Shown here piece by piece: positions 5,426 through 15,418 of a stretch of DNA of 54,719 nt. The position numbers were made by a program, and so were the translations under genes. Position 1 is the first letter of the stretch. Every line of letters begins with the position of its first letter. This DNA is from an uncultured Pirellulaceae bacterium (GTDB lineage Bacteria; Planctomycetota; Planctomycetia; Pirellulales; Pirellulaceae), in the NCBI GenBank assembly GCA_938082855.1, contig CALKCC010000101.1, positions 1 to 54,719 on the forward strand, read 5' to 3'. Under the pieces are notes generated by a model that saw only the letters and a list, made by a program, of their open reading frames with translations, made no database searches and had not been told where the DNA came from.

Positions 5426-6823
5426 GTGGAGGGATTCCGTGGTATGAGTTCAAGCATCACGACGCGACGAACTATTACGCTTGATGGGGATCAGGCAAGT
5501 GTCATTGTTCTTGGAGATTCTGCCTTTCAAAAAGGTACGGTCACTGTAACCAATGGCCGAGCGGGCGATCATCCCGCTATCTTTCGTTTTCTCCAAAACA
5601 TCTTTCGACTGCCAACGTCAACTGACTACGCAGCTCAATTGGAAGACCCCCAATACGAACCTCGAGATCGGATCGTAGCCAAACTAGGTAATCAAATCAT
5701 TGGGCATGCTCGCGTGCAAATGAGAGATATCCAATTCGGAGACGTGCAAATACCTGTTGGCTTTTTGTGCGAAATGGCTACCGCTCCTGAATTCCGCAAA
5801 CAGGGAATCGGTACAGCGCTGCTGGAGCAAGCAGAGCAATTGATGTTAGAGCAGGGTGCTATCCTGGGAATTCTTCGCACACCAGCTGTCTCCTTTTACC
5901 GAGACCATGGCTGGAGTGTCGGTGGTCAACACAGTTATAGTGTGACATCACCCCGAAGCATCCTATCACTGCTTCGCCAGACTGTGCTTGAAGAAGAACC
6001 TGAAACAACCAACCCTCTGGACGAACCGCAAAAACCACTCAATGTGCGGATCTGGAGACATGTGGAACAGGAGGCGCTCATGCGTCTCTACAAACAAAAT
6101 CTAAGTGGTAAGTTTGGCGCAATTGTTCGTACAGATGCCACTTGGCGATGGTTGTTAAATCGACACAGCTTCGAACAGGTCTATGTCGCTATCGACGGAC
6201 CTAAGAAACTAACCATCGAAAGCGGTTTCGATTCCATTGTGGGCTATGCCATCGTCAAACACGGACGCATTCTGGAATTGATGACTGATGAAAGTCGGCC
6301 CGACATTGTTCCTGATCTTCTGGAACGAGTTTGTAGCGATGTCATCGAGCAGAAAGATGTCCCCGTACGACTCGATGCACCCGACGGAGACCCTTTACAT
6401 CAACTAATGAAAGATGCCGGCGGCGAGTTTTTACGTCGTACGGTCGTTGGTGGAGAAGTCATTCTCAGTAAAGTGTTCAATCCACTCACCTTGTTAAAGC
6501 AAGTCCGACATCTACTCAACGATCGTGCACAAGCTGCCAACATCCCACTTCCAGCTTCGCTGGGTCTAGTACTGGATGGTAAAGCTTACACCCTAACGCT
6601 CACGCCACGCTCAGCCAAAGTCACTCGAGGTAAAACCGGTAAGAGTCATCTAACGATGTCAAAATCTGTGTTCTCTCAACTCTTGTTGGGAGTATACTCA
6701 GCTGAAGATGCATTTGACGCCAATGAAATCGAAGCATCCACTAAAGTGGCGAAGCAATTGGCCATGACGATTTTCCAACAACTGCCCGGCCACATACCTC
6801 CGCTTGATGACCTGCTAGCATAA
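5426..6823 (+). CDS. GNAT family N-acetyltransferase with C-terminal SCP2-like domain (Eis-like architecture)
   Basis: CEMATAPEFRKQGIGTALLEQAEQ...GWSVGG; probable start is ATG at 5444 after GGAGGG. Confidence 0.75.
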   Translation: MEGFRGMSSSITTRRTITLDGDQASVIVLGDSAFQKGTVTVTNGRAGDHPAIFRFLQNIFRLPTSTDYAAQLEDPQYEPRDRIVAKLGNQIIGHARVQMRDIQFGDVQIPVGFLCEMATAPEFRKQGIGTALLEQAEQLMLEQGAILGILRTPAVSFYRDHGWSVGGQHSYSVTSPRSILSLLRQTVLEEEPETTNPLDEPQKPLNVRIWRHVEQEALMRLYKQNLSGKFGAIVRTDATWRWLLNRHSFEQVYVAIDGPKKLTIESGFDSIVGYAIVKHGRILELMTDESRPDIVPDLLERVCSDVIEQKDVPVRLDAPDGDPLHQLMKDAGGEFLRRTVVGGEVILSKVFNPLTLLKQVRHLLNDRAQAANIPLPASLGLVLDGKAYTLTLTPRSAKVTRGKTGKSHLTMSKSVFSQLLLGVYSAEDAFDANEIEASTKVAKQLAMTIFQQLPGHIPPLDDLLA

Positions 6824-6832
6824 GAAACGCCC

Positions 6833-8518
6833 ATGAACAGTGAGCAACCAGTTGATTCCGCCTCTGGCTTAATCAAGGTGGGCTGGTTTGGTGTCTTTCT
6901 GATCATCGCGTTAAGCATCTATTCTGCCTTCGTTCAACGTCCGGCCATCGCATCCGATGTAGGTACATACCTCTTGGCCACCGCGACAAGCGATGCGCGG
7001 AATCCAGTTACACTCACTTCAGTCGATCCACAAAACCTCGCTGAGGATCGGAATGCTCCGATCACCTGGTGGCCTGAATCTTACAGTGCCATCCCAGCCT
7101 TTGTGGATCACTCCGCTAACAATCTTGGCGTTCAACTCGATGGAGGGCAGGCCATCCAATGGACAACTCTGTTGGGGTGGGTAATCGGTACATTACTGTG
7201 GTTTTGGTTTTTCAAGTTAGTTTGCCAGCCGAGCCATTTGCCGTGGATCGTTCTGATCTTCCTGACGGCCAGATACAGTCACGCCAATTTCTATCTTTAT
7301 GATGGCGGAGAATTTTTCTACTGGGCCTTATTTCCAGCCGTCCTTTTATTGAATTACAAAGCCATCACTCATGATCAGCAGTCATCATACTCCGCTCACC
7401 TTGCCTCTTTAGCTGGTGTAGCCACCCCAATGCTCGTGCTATTGAAATACAGTGCGGGCTTAAGCACGATTGGATTCGGCCTGAGTTGGCTGTGGATGGT
7501 ATCCAATAAACAGGTTAGCAAATGGAGCTTTCTCAATTGGTGCGTCAGCGCCGCCACGATTAGTGCCTTTATCTTCTGGCTTGGCCTGATCCCAGCAGGT
7601 AATCCAACACAAGTAGACTCCCCGATGCAATGGACACCCATACTTTGGATTACCGGTGCGTGGTTGTTTGCCATGACGGATCTGGGGACCCTTCTCAATA
7701 AATTCACCGTTGATGTCCTTCCAGCCATGGGCGAACATTACGACGGCTCTGAAGGTTGGCTATTTGTACCAGCGGTTGTGATTCTGTGGTGGCTCATTAA
7801 AACACAACAAGAATCACAAGAGCCATTATTGCAGCGATTACACCGGGTACCCGCCGTTAACAAGTTATTAATTGGCCACGCCCTTGGATTTAGTCTGGCC
7901 TTGGCACTACTGTTGATTCGAGGTAGCGCCATACACCTCGACACTCGATTCTTAAGACCTGCAGCAATTGCGCTTATGCCAATGTTGTTAGTCACCCTTT
8001 GGAATCGTTTCTCCACGACTCAGGATTCCAAAAGAAAGTGGCTAACCTGTCTCGCTTTACTTGGACTGACTGTCGTTCCTTGTTCCTATGGTCTGTTAGC
8101 ACTCGGCCATAAAACATTTGTACGCTCTCAATTCGCGACTGCACTCACCGACGGGAATGGTCTACGGCATGATGTCCTCTCCCCGACCGGAGATGCAAAG
8201 GCCTTCTTTCAATTTCTTAATGAGTCAACGACCACCGATGACGTGATCTATATCATCGAGCCCACAATGGGAATCCCCCTCAATGGCCGCAGATTATTTA
8301 TTGAAGAACACGCTCACCTACGAACAAAAGAAGATCTCTCCAAACGGGTTTTCCGAGGAGCACCAAAAGGGCAACTCTATCTTCCACTACCTCGTGAGCT
8401 CAAGGAGGATGGACGAGCCGCGTCGATTCAGAACTCTTTCATTGACGTAAACAGTTGGCGGGAAGAATCGTTGGCTAGTCAACCTGATTGGGTGCTACTG
8501 ATTGGGTCCCCAAACTGA
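6833..8518 (+). CDS. Multi-spanning membrane protein, possibly glycosyltransferase-C-like
   Basis: Many hydrophobic segments; no firm motif. Confidence 0.6.
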   Translation: MNSEQPVDSASGLIKVGWFGVFLIIALSIYSAFVQRPAIASDVGTYLLATATSDARNPVTLTSVDPQNLAEDRNAPITWWPESYSAIPAFVDHSANNLGVQLDGGQAIQWTTLLGWVIGTLLWFWFFKLVCQPSHLPWIVLIFLTARYSHANFYLYDGGEFFYWALFPAVLLLNYKAITHDQQSSYSAHLASLAGVATPMLVLLKYSAGLSTIGFGLSWLWMVSNKQVSKWSFLNWCVSAATISAFIFWLGLIPAGNPTQVDSPMQWTPILWITGAWLFAMTDLGTLLNKFTVDVLPAMGEHYDGSEGWLFVPAVVILWWLIKTQQESQEPLLQRLHRVPAVNKLLIGHALGFSLALALLLIRGSAIHLDTRFLRPAAIALMPMLLVTLWNRFSTTQDSKRKWLTCLALLGLTVVPCSYGLLALGHKTFVRSQFATALTDGNGLRHDVLSPTGDAKAFFQFLNESTTTDDVIYIIEPTMGIPLNGRRLFIEEHAHLRTKEDLSKRVFRGAPKGQLYLPLPRELKEDGRAASIQNSFIDVNSWREESLASQPDWVLLIGSPN

Positions 8519-8603: not shown

Positions 8604-9629
8604 ATGAAACTCCGCCTGACCTTCTGTCTTGTCCTGTTCGTTACTCTACTAGGATGTTCTGATGACGGCCAACCGTCGAACGCATCTCCTGAATCCTCCG
8701 CCGACACACTTCGCATAGGTGTGATGCCTAAATTGGTTGGCATTTCCTATTTCGAAGCGACTGGAAAAGGGGCTAGAGAAGCAGGCGAAGAATTAGGTAT
8801 TAACGTGCACTATGACGGACCCACGTCTGCGATCCATGAAGATCAGGTACGTATGTTAAATACCTGGATGGCTCAGAACTTTGATGTGCTTGCCATCGCG
8901 CCCAACGATCCAGATGCCATTTCATCGACTTTGCGATCGGCTACCAGAGAAGGGTTTACTGTGATGACTTGGGATACCGATGCCAATGCGGAAAACTCAC
9001 GTCGTCAGATCTTTGTTAATCAGGCGTCCAACCAGTCGATTGCTGATACGATGGTCGACATTATGGTCCAAGGCCTTGAAGAACAGGGGAAGGAACCAAA
9101 AGGGAAATTCCTTGTCGTCTCCGGAACTCCAACTGCCTCCAATCAAAATACCTGGATCAAGCTAATGAAAGTACGCATTGCTGAAGATTATCCGGAGATG
9201 GAGTTGCTGGAAACGCTCATGCCAGGTGAAGACCAAAGCAAAGCCCAGGAAATGACTACCGCCGCGTTGAATTCGCATGGAGATATCGTGGGGATATGGG
9301 GGCTGACTTCGGTCGCTATTCCCGCAGCTGCAAAGGCAATTGAAGATGCTGGAAAGACAGGAGACATCTACGCAACGGGAATTGGATTGCCGTCCACGAT
9401 GAAACCGTTTGTTGAGAGCGGCTCGTGTACCAAGTTTGCGCTTTGGGATCCGGTCGATTTGGGCTACCTATCTGTCTACGTAGCCCATCACTTAAAAACT
9501 AAAGGGGAACTACCCGATGGCACTTATGACTTCGGGCGTATCAAAGGCGTCATCGTCAAAGATGGAGAAGCAATTCTTGGCCCTCCTATTGTCTTTACCA
9601 AAGAAAACATAGCGAACTACAATTTCTAA
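8604..9629 (+). CDS. Sugar ABC transporter substrate-binding lipoprotein (RhaS/LsrB/ribose-binding type)
   Basis: Lipobox VTLLGC; IGVMPKLVGISYFEATGKGAREAGEELG; NDPDAISSTLRSATREGFTVMTWDTDA. Confidence 0.85.
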   Translation: MKLRLTFCLVLFVTLLGCSDDGQPSNASPESSADTLRIGVMPKLVGISYFEATGKGAREAGEELGINVHYDGPTSAIHEDQVRMLNTWMAQNFDVLAIAPNDPDAISSTLRSATREGFTVMTWDTDANAENSRRQIFVNQASNQSIADTMVDIMVQGLEEQGKEPKGKFLVVSGTPTASNQNTWIKLMKVRIAEDYPEMELLETLMPGEDQSKAQEMTTAALNSHGDIVGIWGLTSVAIPAAAKAIEDAGKTGDIYATGIGLPSTMKPFVESGSCTKFALWDPVDLGYLSVYVAHHLKTKGELPDGTYDFGRIKGVIVKDGEAILGPPIVFTKENIANYNF

Positions 9630-9688
9630 AGAATGTCTAAAGACAATGCCTTCGACGCGGTTGGAGGATCAATATCACAATTCGAGGA

Positions 9689-10741
9689 ATGATCATGGAA
9701 ACCATTCGAGTTGGTATGATCGGGTTTGGTGCTAATACCCGATTGAGACATGCTCCAGGACTGCTTGCATGCCCAAATGTCTCCTTAGATGCAGTATGTA
9801 ACCGCTCGCTGCAGTCATCTCAACAAGTAGCGGCTGAATACAATATTGCCAAGACTTGTGAACGCTGGGAACAAGTTGTCGAAGACCCAAACATCGATGC
9901 CATTTGCATTGGCACCTGGCCGTATATGCATTGTCCCATTACGCTCGCTGCGCTCGAGCAGGGGAAACATGTACTCACAGAAGCCCGAATGGCCATGGAT
10001 GACGACGAAGCTCGCCAAATGTATGAAGCCAGTCAACGACATCCGGAATTAGTCACGCAAATAGTCCCCAGTCCACTCGGAATGAAAGCCCATAAAGTCG
10101 TGAAACAAATCTTGGCTGACGGGCGGCTAGGTGAGCTACGAGAAGTGATAGTCCTGGGCACCAACGATGCCTATGCCAATTCAGACACTCCGTTACATTG
10201 GCGTCAGTCCGGACCTTACAGCGGTATTAATATGCTGGCTTTGGGAATTATCCATGAACCTCTTGTTCGCTGGATTGAGGATCCGATTCGTGTACTCGCT
10301 AGTACCCAGACATTCACTCCAACTCGTTTGAATCCTGAAACCAGTCAACCGGAGCCTGTTGGAACACCTGATTCTGTACAGGTCATTACCGAATTTCCAT
10401 GTGGGGCTCGAGGCATCTATCATATGAGCGGCGTCGTACACCACGGGCCGGGTCCAGAGATTCACCTATATGGCAGCCAAGGCACATTGAAATATGTCAT
10501 GGCGCCTGACAATAAACTGTATTTCGGATCGTCCAGTGACAACGCTCTTTCAGAGGTACCTATTCCAGACGACCTAGCTGGTGATTGGCGAGTCGAAGAA
10601 GAATTCATCAATGCAATTCGCGGGATCGAGCAAATTGAATTCAATGACTTTGCCAAAGGTGTTCGATATATGGAGTTCACTAAGGCTGTCGAACAAAGCG
10701 CAGCTTCCGGAGCTGCGGTGGATGTCAACTATTCGGCTTAG
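9689..10741 (+). CDS. Gfo/Idh/MocA family oxidoreductase
   Basis: VGMIGFGANTRLRHAPGL; AICIGTWPYMHCPITLAALEQGKHVLTEARMAMD. Start may be 9695 ATG. Confidence 0.85.
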   Translation: MIMETIRVGMIGFGANTRLRHAPGLLACPNVSLDAVCNRSLQSSQQVAAEYNIAKTCERWEQVVEDPNIDAICIGTWPYMHCPITLAALEQGKHVLTEARMAMDDDEARQMYEASQRHPELVTQIVPSPLGMKAHKVVKQILADGRLGELREVIVLGTNDAYANSDTPLHWRQSGPYSGINMLALGIIHEPLVRWIEDPIRVLASTQTFTPTRLNPETSQPEPVGTPDSVQVITEFPCGARGIYHMSGVVHHGPGPEIHLYGSQGTLKYVMAPDNKLYFGSSSDNALSEVPIPDDLAGDWRVEEEFINAIRGIEQIEFNDFAKGVRYMEFTKAVEQSAASGAAVDVNYSA

Positions 10742-11910
10742 CGGTTTCGAAATTGCCCACCACCGATACGTCCACGACCTCGCACACTTCCTGCGTTACG
10801 ATCCGGCTGTAGCTTGATACTGTAACTTTGCTTGATAAGCTTACACCAACCTTCATCGTGACAAGCGTAGTACTCGACTTCGAGAGTGAGTGACGATTGA
10901 GATAAGGATGCCGCTGGGAGCACGTTGGAATCCCATTCTATTCCCAATAGGAATTCGCGAGGATCTGCATCCGATTCGACCTCGATCTTCCTTGCCGATG
11001 CCTCTGCTAAAGCCACTGTTATCCCTTCGGGCGTGCGGATACGAAACCTCAACGGAGGAGCAAGATTGTTCCAATGGACACGTAGTAGCGGGTCCAAGTG
11101 AAAGCCAACATACATCCACCCCAAGCCCTCCTGCATAAAACGACTGTCTACCTCTGCTCGCAACTTGACGTAATACTGCTCACGGCTCAGACTTGGCTCC
11201 ACCAACAACGCCCTCATCTGACCGGGCATTTGAGGCCTGACCGCGACACCTTTGCCAGCTAGCTGAGGTGGAGGCAATTGCTGTAAATCCAAGTCCGCAA
11301 CCGTCGTCGCTGGTGTGACTTCCCCCACCAAATTCGCTAGGTAACTACGAAGTTCAACTGGGTTACTCCATCCACTGGCATGGATGATCTTCCCTTTGGG
11401 ATCAATCACAAACTGACTGTTCGGAGCACCACCCAGAGCTTGCTTCAGCTCATTTTTCATGTTGTCACAGAGCCACTCAATTTCCGATCCAAGTGTCCTC
11501 TTGGCCTCCGCGACATGAAGCAACCGTTCTTCCTGAGTAAACGGTTGTACGTAACCATTATGTTCTGGATGAGCGAGTGCCTTATAGATGTAATAGAAAG
11601 CAACATCCTGTGATTGATAGTCGACGGCCACTGTTTCCAAACTGGGAACATTTCTGAGAAAAGGTGGTCATGTGAGACACCCAAATACGAGGACTGTATA
11701 TCGCCCTCGTAACTCAGCTGTACTGAATGGTTTCCCGTCTGCTGTGAAAACGGAAACCTCCGGCAGTTCCTGTCCTTGTAGATTTGTCACCTGAGGAAAG
11801 GTTGCATTCGGCTGACGCACGGAAGGCTGAGCTTGTAAAGACGCTCCACCAAACAACACTGCCATAGCTAACAGTCGTGATAGAAAAAAATTCAATTTCA
11901 TTACTGACAC
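10738..11910 (-). CDS. Candidate exported selenoprotein: thioredoxin/deiodinase-like domain with in-frame TGA (11668-11670) in FGCLT-U-PPFLRNV, plus C-terminal DsbD-alpha-like domain (CHDEGWC)
   Basis: Track ORFs 11668..11910 and 10738..11640 are in the same frame, separated by TGA CCA CCT TTT CTC AGA AAT GTT CCC AGT and then the codons TTG GAA ACA. Residues on both sides form a continuous thioredoxin fold (TVLVFGCLT-U-PPFLRNVPSLETVAVDYQSQDVAFYYIYKALAHPEHNGY). Confidence 0.75.
11632..11650 (-). promoter_or_regulatory. Candidate bacterial SECIS hairpin
   Basis: mRNA UGUUC CC AGUUU GG AAACA: 4 bp + C.A mismatch + 2 bp, loop AGUUU with G at position 2; 24 nt between UGA and loop. Confidence 0.5.
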
Positions 11911-11954
11911 CTTACTGAACTAAAGAGCCGCCGATTATCACTACGATCATCCTA

Positions 11955-12899
11955 TCAGTTCAATCGCTTGGCCAGCCATTGATTCCAAACCGCGATGGCA
12001 ACTACGAGCACACCCATCACAATCATTTTCACTCTAGCGTCCATCCAAAGGTAATCATTGGCCATGAGGTCGAGGCTAATATCCAGAGAAGCCATGACAC
12101 ACAGTCCCAGTAACGTGCGACCAATCGAACCATGTCCACCGGTGATCAGCGTACCACCCACCACGACACAAGCAATTACTTTCAATTCCGCTCCTTGATG
12201 AGCGATTGCGATGGCTGTTGTGCGCGACATGACATACATCACTGCTACCACTCCAGCGAGGAGGCCACTCATCACATAGACACCAAATAAAACCTGATTC
12301 ACAGGCAGAGCGACGTATCTAGCGGCGACCGGATTTTCACCTAGATAAAAACAAGTCCTTCCGAATCGAGTCCGATGTAAACCAACCAACGCCATGCAAA
12401 ATACGGAAGCAAACACAAAGTACTGAGCTGGCCACTTGCCAAAGTAAATCGCTTCCTCCAGAGCAATTGGCATTTGGATCCCTGCTTCCGGAGCGATAGA
12501 AAGTGCCAAGCCTGAAAATAATGCCATGGTTGCCAGAGTCACAATCAAGGGAGACAGCCCTTTGTAGATTGCATAGCCGTTAGTGGCACCAGCTAAAGTT
12601 CCGACCAGAATGGCTGTCACTGCAGCGGCTTGAAAGGACCATTCGAATTGATCAAATAATACGCCGGTGGTGACAACACAAAGTGCAACCACCGAGGCAA
12701 TGGATAGGTCAATTCCCCCGGTAATGATGATGGCGGTCATCGCCATCGCAAGGGTTCCTACTTCCATCCATTCCTTGCCAGTCTCAATCAGTGCACTTGG
12801 ACGTTCAACTTTGGTCACGACAATCAAGAGTGCCAAAATCAACAATGAGAGAGGCACGAGGAGTGACAAGACCGTTGACTGAATCTTCTTCCGGTTCAT
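11955..12899 (-). CDS. Sugar ABC transporter permease (RbsC/LsrD/RhaQ type)
   Basis: TAIIITGGIDLSIASVVALCVVTTGVLFD and ELKVIACVVVGGTLITGGHGSIGRTLLG are hallmarks of this permease family. Confidence 0.9.
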   Translation of the reverse strand: MNRKKIQSTVLSLLVPLSLLILALLIVVTKVERPSALIETGKEWMEVGTLAMAMTAIIITGGIDLSIASVVALCVVTTGVLFDQFEWSFQAAAVTAILVGTLAGATNGYAIYKGLSPLIVTLATMALFSGLALSIAPEAGIQMPIALEEAIYFGKWPAQYFVFASVFCMALVGLHRTRFGRTCFYLGENPVAARYVALPVNQVLFGVYVMSGLLAGVVAVMYVMSRTTAIAIAHQGAELKVIACVVVGGTLITGGHGSIGRTLLGLCVMASLDISLDLMANDYLWMDARVKMIVMGVLVVAIAVWNQWLAKRLN

Positions 12900-15418
12900 T
12901 GAGAGGCCCTCCCAGTCGCCGCTTGTTGCTTCGCCGTTCGGCGTGCCAAATGCCGGGCACTCAGATGGTCAATTGTGATGGCTATTAAGATCATGAGTCC
13001 CACAACCAATTTGATGCGACCGGCTGACGCTTGAAATTGAAGCAATACCGCCTGAAGAGTTTTCAATAGTAAAGCACCCAGAGCAACCCCCACGACAGTA
13101 CCCCGACCACCCGTAATGGACACTCCTCCAATCACCGCGATCGCGATGGCATCCAGCTCCCACATCTCTCCTAACGTAGACTGCATTTGAGTGGTTGTGG
13201 CCAGTTGTAACAGACCTGACAACGCTACAAGCACTCCACTCAATGCAAATGCCCAACACCAGGCAACCGGTTTGCGGATCCCCAATAAACTGGCGGCGAC
13301 CTCCGAATTGCCTACGACGTACAGATGGCGACCGCGATGATGTCGAGTCATAAAAATATGGACGCTAATGAATATCAATGCTCCATAGATTAAAGATGTT
13401 GGAAAGCTTCCATATTTGGCAATCCAGGTAAATACGTCGGGCACGTCCGTAATCGACTCCCCGTTCATTAATACCGCTACCATTCCACGAAACGCGTATA
13501 GCATTCCCAAAGTCACCACGATCGGATGAACATTCCCCCAAATCGACATTGCTGCATTAAGGAGGCTCCCAGCTATAGCAACAAAAACCGCCACCCCAAT
13601 GCCAATAAAGATGCCGAGGATGGGAGGCAAGCCCGAGGTCATGACGATTCCTCCGGCTGCCGTAGCCAGACCCAGAAGCGAACCGACTGATATATCGATG
13701 GCACCAACGACAATGACAATTGCAGCAGCTAGTCCCAGAATCGCCCAAGGGACGACATTGACGAACAAAACTGCAAAGTCAAACGAGGGATTTTGCAGCT
13801 TGAGAACGATCATCAAAACAACTGCGATGGCGGCCAAGCCAACCTCTGTAAGATACCTACCAAAGAAGCTTGTTTTGCTTTCAAACGATTGCCCAGCGCT
13901 ATGAGAACTCTCTTCCGTAGTCGATACCGGGAAGGCCAGCTCAGCGACTTGCTCTGCCGTTGCTTCTTGCGAATTAAGGTCACCGGAAATGGAGCCATCA
14001 CGAAAGACGATCGTTCGGTGACTATAACGCAATACTTCTGGAAGTTCCGAGCTGATAAAGATCACTGCGCAACCGTCCGAAGCTAGGTCAGCAATTATGT
14101 TATGCAGTTCTTCCTTGGCACCGACATCCACGCCTCGAGTCGGCTCATCTAGTATCAGTACCTTGGGACGATTCAGTAACCACCGACCCACGATGACTTT
14201 CTGCTGATTACCACCCGAGAGATTCTCAATAGCTTGCGCCGAACTGGAGAACTTAATATTAAGTAATTCTTGAATTCGAGTGGTTGCTGCCTCTTCCCGA
14301 GCGTTACTCGTCAATACGCCTTTGCCGAGGGTTGGCAGGGCCGCCGCCACGGCATTTTCCGAAACGCTATGCCATCTGAAGATTCCCTGATGGAGCCTAT
14401 CTTCGGTAACCAATCCTATTCCGTTGGCCACGGCCTCTTTAGGGTTGTTAGGGTTAGCTCGCTGCCCATCTACAAAGATGTCTCCAGCCTGCCGCTCCCG
14501 GACACCAAATACTGTCTCTGCGAATTCCGTGCGACCTGCGCCAACAAGACCGTAAATCCCTACAATCTCTCCCGCTTTGACGTCTAATGATACCTCTTTA
14601 ACCCCACCCGAAATGTCACTCAATTCACGTACAGAAAACACGTTCGGTGCCTCGGTCAAATCAGGGATCATCCGTTGTTGATCCAGATTAACTCGACGGC
14701 CCACCATGGCTTCCACTAAGGAATGACCGGTCACTTCTTCGAGAGGGAGCGTCCAGATAAGTTGACCGTCTCGTAAAACAGAAATGCGGTCGCTCAATTC
14801 AAAAATCTCTTCCTGCCGGTGAGAGATATAAACAATCGCCGCTCCCTGACGCTTTAGCTGAGCTATCTGTTCGAAGAGCCAGGTGGTTTCTGTCGCGCTT
14901 AGTGCGCTGGTGGGTTCATCCAAAATCAAGACTTTGGCGTTTTGAGCAACCGCAGATGCCACCTGAAGCATTTGGCGCTGAGCCACTGAAAGAGAGGCCG
15001 CCGATACCCTCGAATCAATCGGCTCCGGCAACTGCTGGAGATACGCCTGAGCCGAAGCATGGATTTGAGTCCAGTTCACAAACCCAAGCTGATCGATTGG
15101 CAGGCCTTGAAGTAGAGCAATGTTCTCGGCGACGCTTAGATGATCAAATAACTCGGATTCCTGAAATACAGTAACCACGCCATTTTGCCGAGCCTCGATC
15201 GGAGTCGAATAAGCATCGCCTCCATGCATTTGAATCTCACCAGCGTCTGGCGTGTATACACCGGCAGCTAGGTGAATTAATGTGCTCTTTCCAGCTCCAT
15301 TTTCACCCACGATCGCATGGACTTCCCCTTCGTGAAGAGAAATGGAGACGTTATTGAGCGCGCGTACGCCTGGAAACGTCTTCGTCACTTCTTTCCATTC
15401 AAAGACGGTCTTGCTCAT
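12896..15418 (-). CDS. Fused sugar ABC transporter: tandem ATPase (RbsA type) + permease (RbsC type)
   Basis: Walker A GENGAGKST, LSVAQRQML, LDEPTSAL; second domain LSGGNQQKV, LDEPTRGVD; then permease GAIDISVGSLLGL...AIAVIGGVSITGGRGTVVGVALG. ATGA overlap with the downstream permease gene. Confidence 0.92.
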   Translation of the reverse strand: MSKTVFEWKEVTKTFPGVRALNNVSISLHEGEVHAIVGENGAGKSTLIHLAAGVYTPDAGEIQMHGGDAYSTPIEARQNGVVTVFQESELFDHLSVAENIALLQGLPIDQLGFVNWTQIHASAQAYLQQLPEPIDSRVSAASLSVAQRQMLQVASAVAQNAKVLILDEPTSALSATETTWLFEQIAQLKRQGAAIVYISHRQEEIFELSDRISVLRDGQLIWTLPLEEVTGHSLVEAMVGRRVNLDQQRMIPDLTEAPNVFSVRELSDISGGVKEVSLDVKAGEIVGIYGLVGAGRTEFAETVFGVRERQAGDIFVDGQRANPNNPKEAVANGIGLVTEDRLHQGIFRWHSVSENAVAAALPTLGKGVLTSNAREEAATTRIQELLNIKFSSSAQAIENLSGGNQQKVIVGRWLLNRPKVLILDEPTRGVDVGAKEELHNIIADLASDGCAVIFISSELPEVLRYSHRTIVFRDGSISGDLNSQEATAEQVAELAFPVSTTEESSHSAGQSFESKTSFFGRYLTEVGLAAIAVVLMIVLKLQNPSFDFAVLFVNVVPWAILGLAAAIVIVVGAIDISVGSLLGLATAAGGIVMTSGLPPILGIFIGIGVAVFVAIAGSLLNAAMSIWGNVHPIVVTLGMLYAFRGMVAVLMNGESITDVPDVFTWIAKYGSFPTSLIYGALIFISVHIFMTRHHRGRHLYVVGNSEVAASLLGIRKPVAWCWAFALSGVLVALSGLLQLATTTQMQSTLGEMWELDAIAIAVIGGVSITGGRGTVVGVALGALLLKTLQAVLLQFQASAGRIKLVVGLMILIAITIDHLSARHLARRTAKQQAATGRASQ

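Follow-up and report, generated by a model that had tools for sequence, protein, structure and literature searches.

A predicted Cys-x-x-Sec selenoprotein joining a deiodinase-like thioredoxin fold to a DsbD_N-like domain in an uncultured Pirellulaceae bacterium

The window, that is, the whole stretch of 54,719 nucleotides analysed here, corresponds to contig C101 of a 4.16-Mb source genome assembled in 351 contigs and 85% complete. On its minus strand, at 10738..11901, a complete selenoprotein gene was found, comprising 387 codons with UGA read as selenocysteine (Sec), closed by a TAA stop and aligned with 27 orthologues. Very probably, this gene encodes a functional selenoprotein whose plan combines a Cys-x-x-Sec (CxxU) thioredoxin-fold domain with a DsbD_N-like domain, a judgement that concerns the domain plan and excludes the electron path discussed below. 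Two elements presented here, a SECIS hairpin and the C-terminal DsbD_N-like domain, go beyond the preliminary description of this locus.

Direct reading confirmed that two minus-strand open reading frames (11668-11910 and 10738-11640) share the same frame and that the sole stop between the open stretches is the TGA at 11668-11670, as had been described. Reading through this UGA generates TVLVFGCLT-U-PPFLRN..., and no further stop is encountered until the TAA at 10738-10740. The frame and its single TGA were retained from the earlier account, but two of its bounds were corrected: the open frame resumes at 11667, directly past the TGA, 11640 being only its first TTG, and the ATG at 11901 is likely the start codon, in preference to the GTG at 11910. 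What may be a Shine-Dalgarno-like sequence, AAGGTG, was read directly at 11908..11913 (minus strand), 6 nt upstream of this ATG. The N-terminus, MKLNFFLSRLLAMAVLFGGASLQAQ (11827..11901, minus strand), is hydrophobic and signal-peptide-like, ending in ..AQ in most orthologues, and the protein is probably exported to the periplasm, judging from these residues. The Sec codon itself corresponds to residue 78 (11668..11670, minus strand), and the invariant Cys75 (11677..11679, minus strand) forms with it the CxxU pair.

The conservation of this codon was assessed in two overlapping sets of relatives. In the first, a search of 99 relatives followed by reading of the loci at the TGA codon revealed TGA at exactly the same codon in the window gene and in 25 orthologues of the same family or order, and TGT (Cys) in three orthologues (L043-L045), which grouped together on a long branch in a tree built by a quick method with a midpoint root. 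The second set derived from a GTDB genome scan that yielded 185 relatives, from which 80 were retained and 79 proved readable; GCLT-TGA-PPF was present in 79/79 of these readable named-genome relatives, the nearest being Rhodopirellula sp. NAT69 (91%, L057). Merging both sets resulted in a total of 88 distinct Sec-form genes, which span Planctomycetota, Acidobacteriota, Verrucomicrobiota, Kiritimatiellota and Poribacteria. The earlier question of whether homologues carry Cys or Sec at this position is thereby answered with Sec, or with Cys in one clade of three genomes, and the possibility that another codon might stand at 11668-11670 is contradicted by the recurrence of TGA in so many genes and assemblies. 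Moreover, Cys75, Sec/Cys78, Cys347 and Cys353 were all invariant in the 28-member alignment, which upholds the CxxU arrangement (CLTU) pointed out before.

Other observations were made among these relatives. One orthologue (G011:C33:113726-114717) was apparently broken in two frames and presented an extra TAG, which may reflect gene decay or misassembly, and two near-identical gene copies found in one bin (G002:C99 and G002:C47; L058, L064) probably represent strain-level duplication in a metagenome-assembled genome (MAG). Single in-frame TGAs were also observed in more distant redoxin-like relatives of the same order (26-36% identity), such as G069:C7:55985-56497, G049:C104:9452-10030, G088:C166:3653-4105 and G088:C84:8455-8799, among others, which suggests that redoxin selenoproteins form a larger set that has escaped annotation.

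A hairpin was identified at 11632..11650 (minus strand), beginning 17 nt past the UGA and occupying nucleotides 21-39 counting from its U, with a core of GUYYCC - AGUUU or GGUCU - GGARRC. The loop is AGUUU in the window gene and GGUCU in many relatives, and the latter resembles the SECIS loop of E. coli fdhF. Simple folding of single sequences over the 51 nt after the UGA produced inconsistent structures, and the conserved hairpin emerged only via comparison. Among all variable column pairs of these 51 nt, the two with the highest mutual information were the stem pairs 20-38 and 23-35 (zero-based). Pair 23-35 links the third positions of Val and Glu codons (GTC..GAG 66, GTT..GAA 12, GTT..GAG 3), so that its changes compensate each other and leave the amino acids unaltered. 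In 25 sequences, 20 compensatory cells were counted, a value matched by 0/500 shuffles, and pairing occurred in 96% of hairpin cells vs 24-66% in slid controls, the shuffle test ignoring the relatedness of the sequences and the slid control not. Codon choice within the hairpin was also fixed, since Pro was encoded by CCC in 60/60 cases, Ser by AGT in 50/50, Gly by GGT in 28/28 and Arg by AGG in 10/10, against background uses of 27%, 15%, 21% and 8%, respectively. One inner stem pair was a C-A mismatch in 57/83 distinct sequences, including the window gene, and U-A in the rest, and the hairpin sequence was not kept in the three Cys genes. A hairpin just past the UGA with a small apical loop containing a G, as defined for bacterial SECIS elements (PMC1088965), is present here. 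From its covariation and codon restriction, the 11632-11650 hairpin has the properties that a bacterial SECIS should show.

The Sec-decoding genes on which the selenoprotein reading had been said to depend were largely recovered. The window's own genome harbors a tRNA-Sec with anticodon UCA (contig C239) and adjacent selA and selB genes (C130:4702-5790 and 6096-7988); no selD was detected in this bin, which is 85% complete, yet the gene occurs in 6/8 congeners, where it carries one in-frame TGA itself. In a 21-genome set, strong matches to both selA and selB were found in 15/17 Sec-form genomes. Both genes were found in strain K23_9, a cultured planctomycete with a complete genome that carries the selenoprotein gene (L113). 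No true selA or selB was found in G004 and G008, which carry the TGA form and are 69 and 91% complete, and the three Cys-form genomes (97-99% complete) presented no selA/selB, only weak paralogue matches. The SelD of the genus and of some relatives (L053-L056, from G001, G008, G032 and G006) is itself a selenoprotein with one in-frame TGA; in other members of the order, the SelD frames are long (740-840 aa) and free of TGA, and may correspond to the Ndh-SelD fusion already known. In the congener G005 (89% complete), a tRNA-Sec of 65.6 bits was observed, and neither selD nor an orthologue of the selenoprotein gene was found.

Standard ORF calling cuts the gene in two at the UGA, as would also be seen if this TGA were a nonsense mutation, a sequencing error or a reassigned codon in a pseudogene or an altered code. 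Such an explanation was rejected, and its probability is negligible. First, the matches to Pfam PF00837, PF00578 and PF08534 all span the TGA at 11668-11670, and the split frame is not due to chance because one protein family covers both of its sides. Second, comparison with the 91%-identical orthologue L018 gave dN/dS of 0.03 before the TGA and of 0.06 and 0.09 after it, which points to purifying selection on both sides, as estimated from the one usable pair, dS being saturated for most congeners. Third, TGA retains its ordinary use as a stop nearby, since a TGA (11955-11957) closes the permease ORF located directly upstream, and other genes here end likewise, which argues against a reassigned code. 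Together with the conservation of the TGA in 88 distinct genes across phyla, the SECIS covariation and the Sec machinery, these results agree with the earlier proposal of a functional selenoprotein rather than a nonsense mutation. On the sequences compared, the TGA at 11668-11670 is a selenocysteine codon.

Pfam, profile and structure matches altogether delimited a deiodinase-like thioredoxin-fold domain at residues 42-193 (11323..11778, minus strand). In the window protein, AhpC-TSA, T4_deiodinase and Redoxin all scored above cut-off, PF00837 reaching 29.3 bits vs a gathering score of 27 with Sec at the active site; among the aligned members, PF00837 was matched in 26/28 (E up to 1), and AhpC-TSA and Redoxin in 28/28. 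A profile search of solved structures returned DIO3 first (E 1.4e-7), with ResA also among the closest, and the AlphaFold model of the full protein (pLDDT 89, pTM 0.83) matched ResA as well as DIO2 and DIO3 (9h48 and 4tr3; rmsd 2.2/2.7, identity 23/26%). The deiodinase similarity noticed at the outset is sustained by the PF00837 score and by the 4tr3/9h48 matches, as a statement of fold and family.

This likeness does not extend to the whole active site. Thr169, Tyr197 and His202 of Dio3 correspond to the invariant T77, Y106 and H111, but Ser167 is replaced by Cys75, a difference from which the CxxU pair arises, Glu200 is replaced by Leu109, and His219 is located in an insert with no match. 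In Dio3, Glu200Ala is inactive and Ser167Ala is reduced by over 90% (PMC7506546). Thyroid-hormone chemistry is unlikely because no equivalents of Glu200, Ser167 and His219 are present, and a true iodothyronine deiodinase, for which the Glu, the Ser and the second His are required, was rejected. A reductive dehalogenase applying deiodinase-type chemistry to a non-thyroid iodinated or brominated marine aromatic would be in line with the PF00837 score and with the three retained residues. However, the same Ser, Glu and His differences, with the loss of activity reported for the Dio3 mutants, weigh against it, as do records of relatives in groundwater MAGs; this activity is very improbable.

Residues 229-366 (10804..11217, minus strand) were modelled as an Ig-like domain (pLDDT 93), which harbors the invariant C-x5-C pair formed by Cys347 (10861..10863, minus strand) and Cys353 (10843..10845, minus strand). 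The DsbD_N profile (PF11412) matched 13/27 members with a best E of 3.6e-5, and the window protein itself presented no DsbD_N score by single-sequence HMM. Comparison by hhalign with planctomycete DsbD_N and E. coli nDsbD resulted in 94% probability, against 0.3% for a Sec-domain control, and no PDB sequence was matched when the C-terminal profile was searched on its own. Foldseek placed nDsbD at rank 22 (E 0.024), amid other Ig-like folds, and owing to this weaker structural signal the domain is considered DsbD_N-like with moderate confidence. The Cys pair was kept in 78/79 named relatives, the exception (L064) being cut by a contig end. EF-hand Pfam matches were found in 12/28 aligned members, with none in the window protein, and EF-hand-like motifs lie past the DsbD_N-like domain in about 46/79 named relatives.

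Regarding the genomic context, within the genus the gene is placed 3′ of a sugar-type ABC transporter, after a gap of 53 nt and in conserved order. The conserved block (window 8604-15418) includes an ABC ATPase-permease and a permease upstream, on the same strand as the selenoprotein gene, and a MocA-type oxidoreductase and a sugar-type binding protein on the opposite strand. In this block, a TGA at 12969-12971 (minus strand), flanked by open frames of 96 and 337 codons, was not judged to be a selenoprotein because the 5′ stretch shares its DNA, in a different frame, with the ABC ATPase-permease gene (12896-15418), and the 3′ stretch corresponds to the permease gene. Outside the genus, no consistently linked partner gene was found; since the neighbours vary there, an operon partner was rejected as a guide to function. 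Sulfatase-like genes recurred nearby in 16 loci, a proximity that was given no weight because Planctomycetes are rich in sulfatases, of which they carry large families (PMC4807772).

As to the catalytic role, that of a disulfide reductase (selenol/thiol-disulfide oxidoreductase) is the most likely of those considered, although at somewhat less than even odds, part of the probability falling to none of the roles named here. In the proposed mechanism, the UGA at 11668-11670 would be decoded as Sec78 by SelB and tRNA-Sec, directed by the 11632-11650 hairpin, and the mature exported protein would display a CxxU deiodinase-like domain joined to an Ig domain with C-x5-C. The Sec78 selenolate would reduce an oxidised periplasmic substrate, such as a disulfide, a sulfenate or a peroxide, Cys75 would resolve the Se-S intermediate, and the Cys347/Cys353 pair would re-reduce the CxxU centre with electrons that may come from a DsbD-type membrane reductase. 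A search via the DsbD_N domain found no full DsbD in the own genome. We infer the substrate, the direction of electron flow and the resolution steps from the anatomy of the protein.

Alternatively, the protein could be a thiol-dependent peroxidase (peroxiredoxin/GPx-like), in which periplasmic peroxides (H2O2, organic or lipid) would be reduced by Sec78, the latter being recharged by the Cys pair of the C-terminal domain or by some other thiol. Peroxidases tend to favour Sec, and such an activity also accords with AhpC-TSA and Redoxin, which both score above cut-off in the window protein and are matched in all 28 aligned members. However, the solved structures that came closest in the profile search were DIO3 and ResA, not peroxiredoxins, and the peroxidatic signature of peroxiredoxins, PxxxTxxC/U, is absent, the motif here being GCLT-U-PPF with CxxU; a peroxidase is rather unlikely, if still a serious competitor of the disulfide reductase.

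Deiodinase-like selenoproteins of bacteria were described in 2005 (PMC1088965) and in 2008 (PMC2398784), from the Sargasso Sea and GOS surveys, and the present family has in common with them PF00837, Sec at the deiodinase position, a SECIS just past the UGA and Cys homologues. A 2026 review lists for them the motif UxxC (PMC13188914), which is not clearly defining, and PMC2398784 lists none, whereas UxxC is absent here, PPF following the Sec and the conserved pair being CxxU (UPPF). A DsbD_N-like domain is unmentioned for the published proteins, which were compared by description and may be identical with the present family. In 2021, an EF-hand-fused deiodinase-like selenoprotein and a Prx-like/PF11412 fusion were reported (PMC9402790). 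The text on the former makes no mention of a DsbD_N-like domain, and the present family, with EF-hands in the members and relatives counted above and none in the window protein, probably coincides with, or stands close to, that EF-hand-fused family. The latter (DsbC domain, now DsbD_N) likewise combines a Sec-type thioredoxin fold with PF11412, but it was reported with U/CxxC and as Prx-like, in contrast with the deiodinase-like CxxU observed here.

Compared with DIO2/DIO3, the family shares the thioredoxin fold, T-U-PPF, the Tyr and the AHP motif, and differs in lacking the Glu200, Ser167 and His219 equivalents, in its extra DsbD_N-like domain and in being a bacterial, probably exported protein. 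The likeness to E. coli nDsbD (DsbD-alpha; 1l6p, 1jpe, 1jzd), an Ig-like fold with C-x5-C near its end, is remote, the structural match with 1jzd having 12% identity, and here the fusion partner of the domain is a Sec redoxin instead of the membrane domain of DsbD. A partial match to NCBIfam NF038285 (deiodinase_rel), over the Sec domain, scored 53 bits, far below the 250-bit cut-off of that model, and no NCBIfam or Pfam model in the libraries searched covers the whole protein. Since gene callers also split these genes at the UGA, many genomes probably contain members of the family that were cut short or overlooked. Sec was kept in nearly every family member found, in at least four phyla, unlike many redoxins, in which Cys forms dominate, and this retention suggests that selenium is important for the function of the family. 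The elements added here are the DsbD_N-like domain, the invariant CxxU pair, the near-obligate occurrence of Sec over several phyla and the covariation that supports the SECIS. In animal deiodinases, the selenol reduction step is treated as still open (PMC7506546, PMC9141512), and the fused DsbD_N-like domain provides a concrete, testable hypothesis for the reduction of a deiodinase-like selenol. More speculatively, the family could constitute a near-obligate-Sec class spanning several phyla, in which CxxU is recharged in-chain by a DsbD-N-type domain, that is, a self-contained selenium branch of periplasmic disulfide reduction, often with calcium-binding EF-hands, that would stand apart from the deiodinase-like selenoproteins of a single domain catalogued to date.
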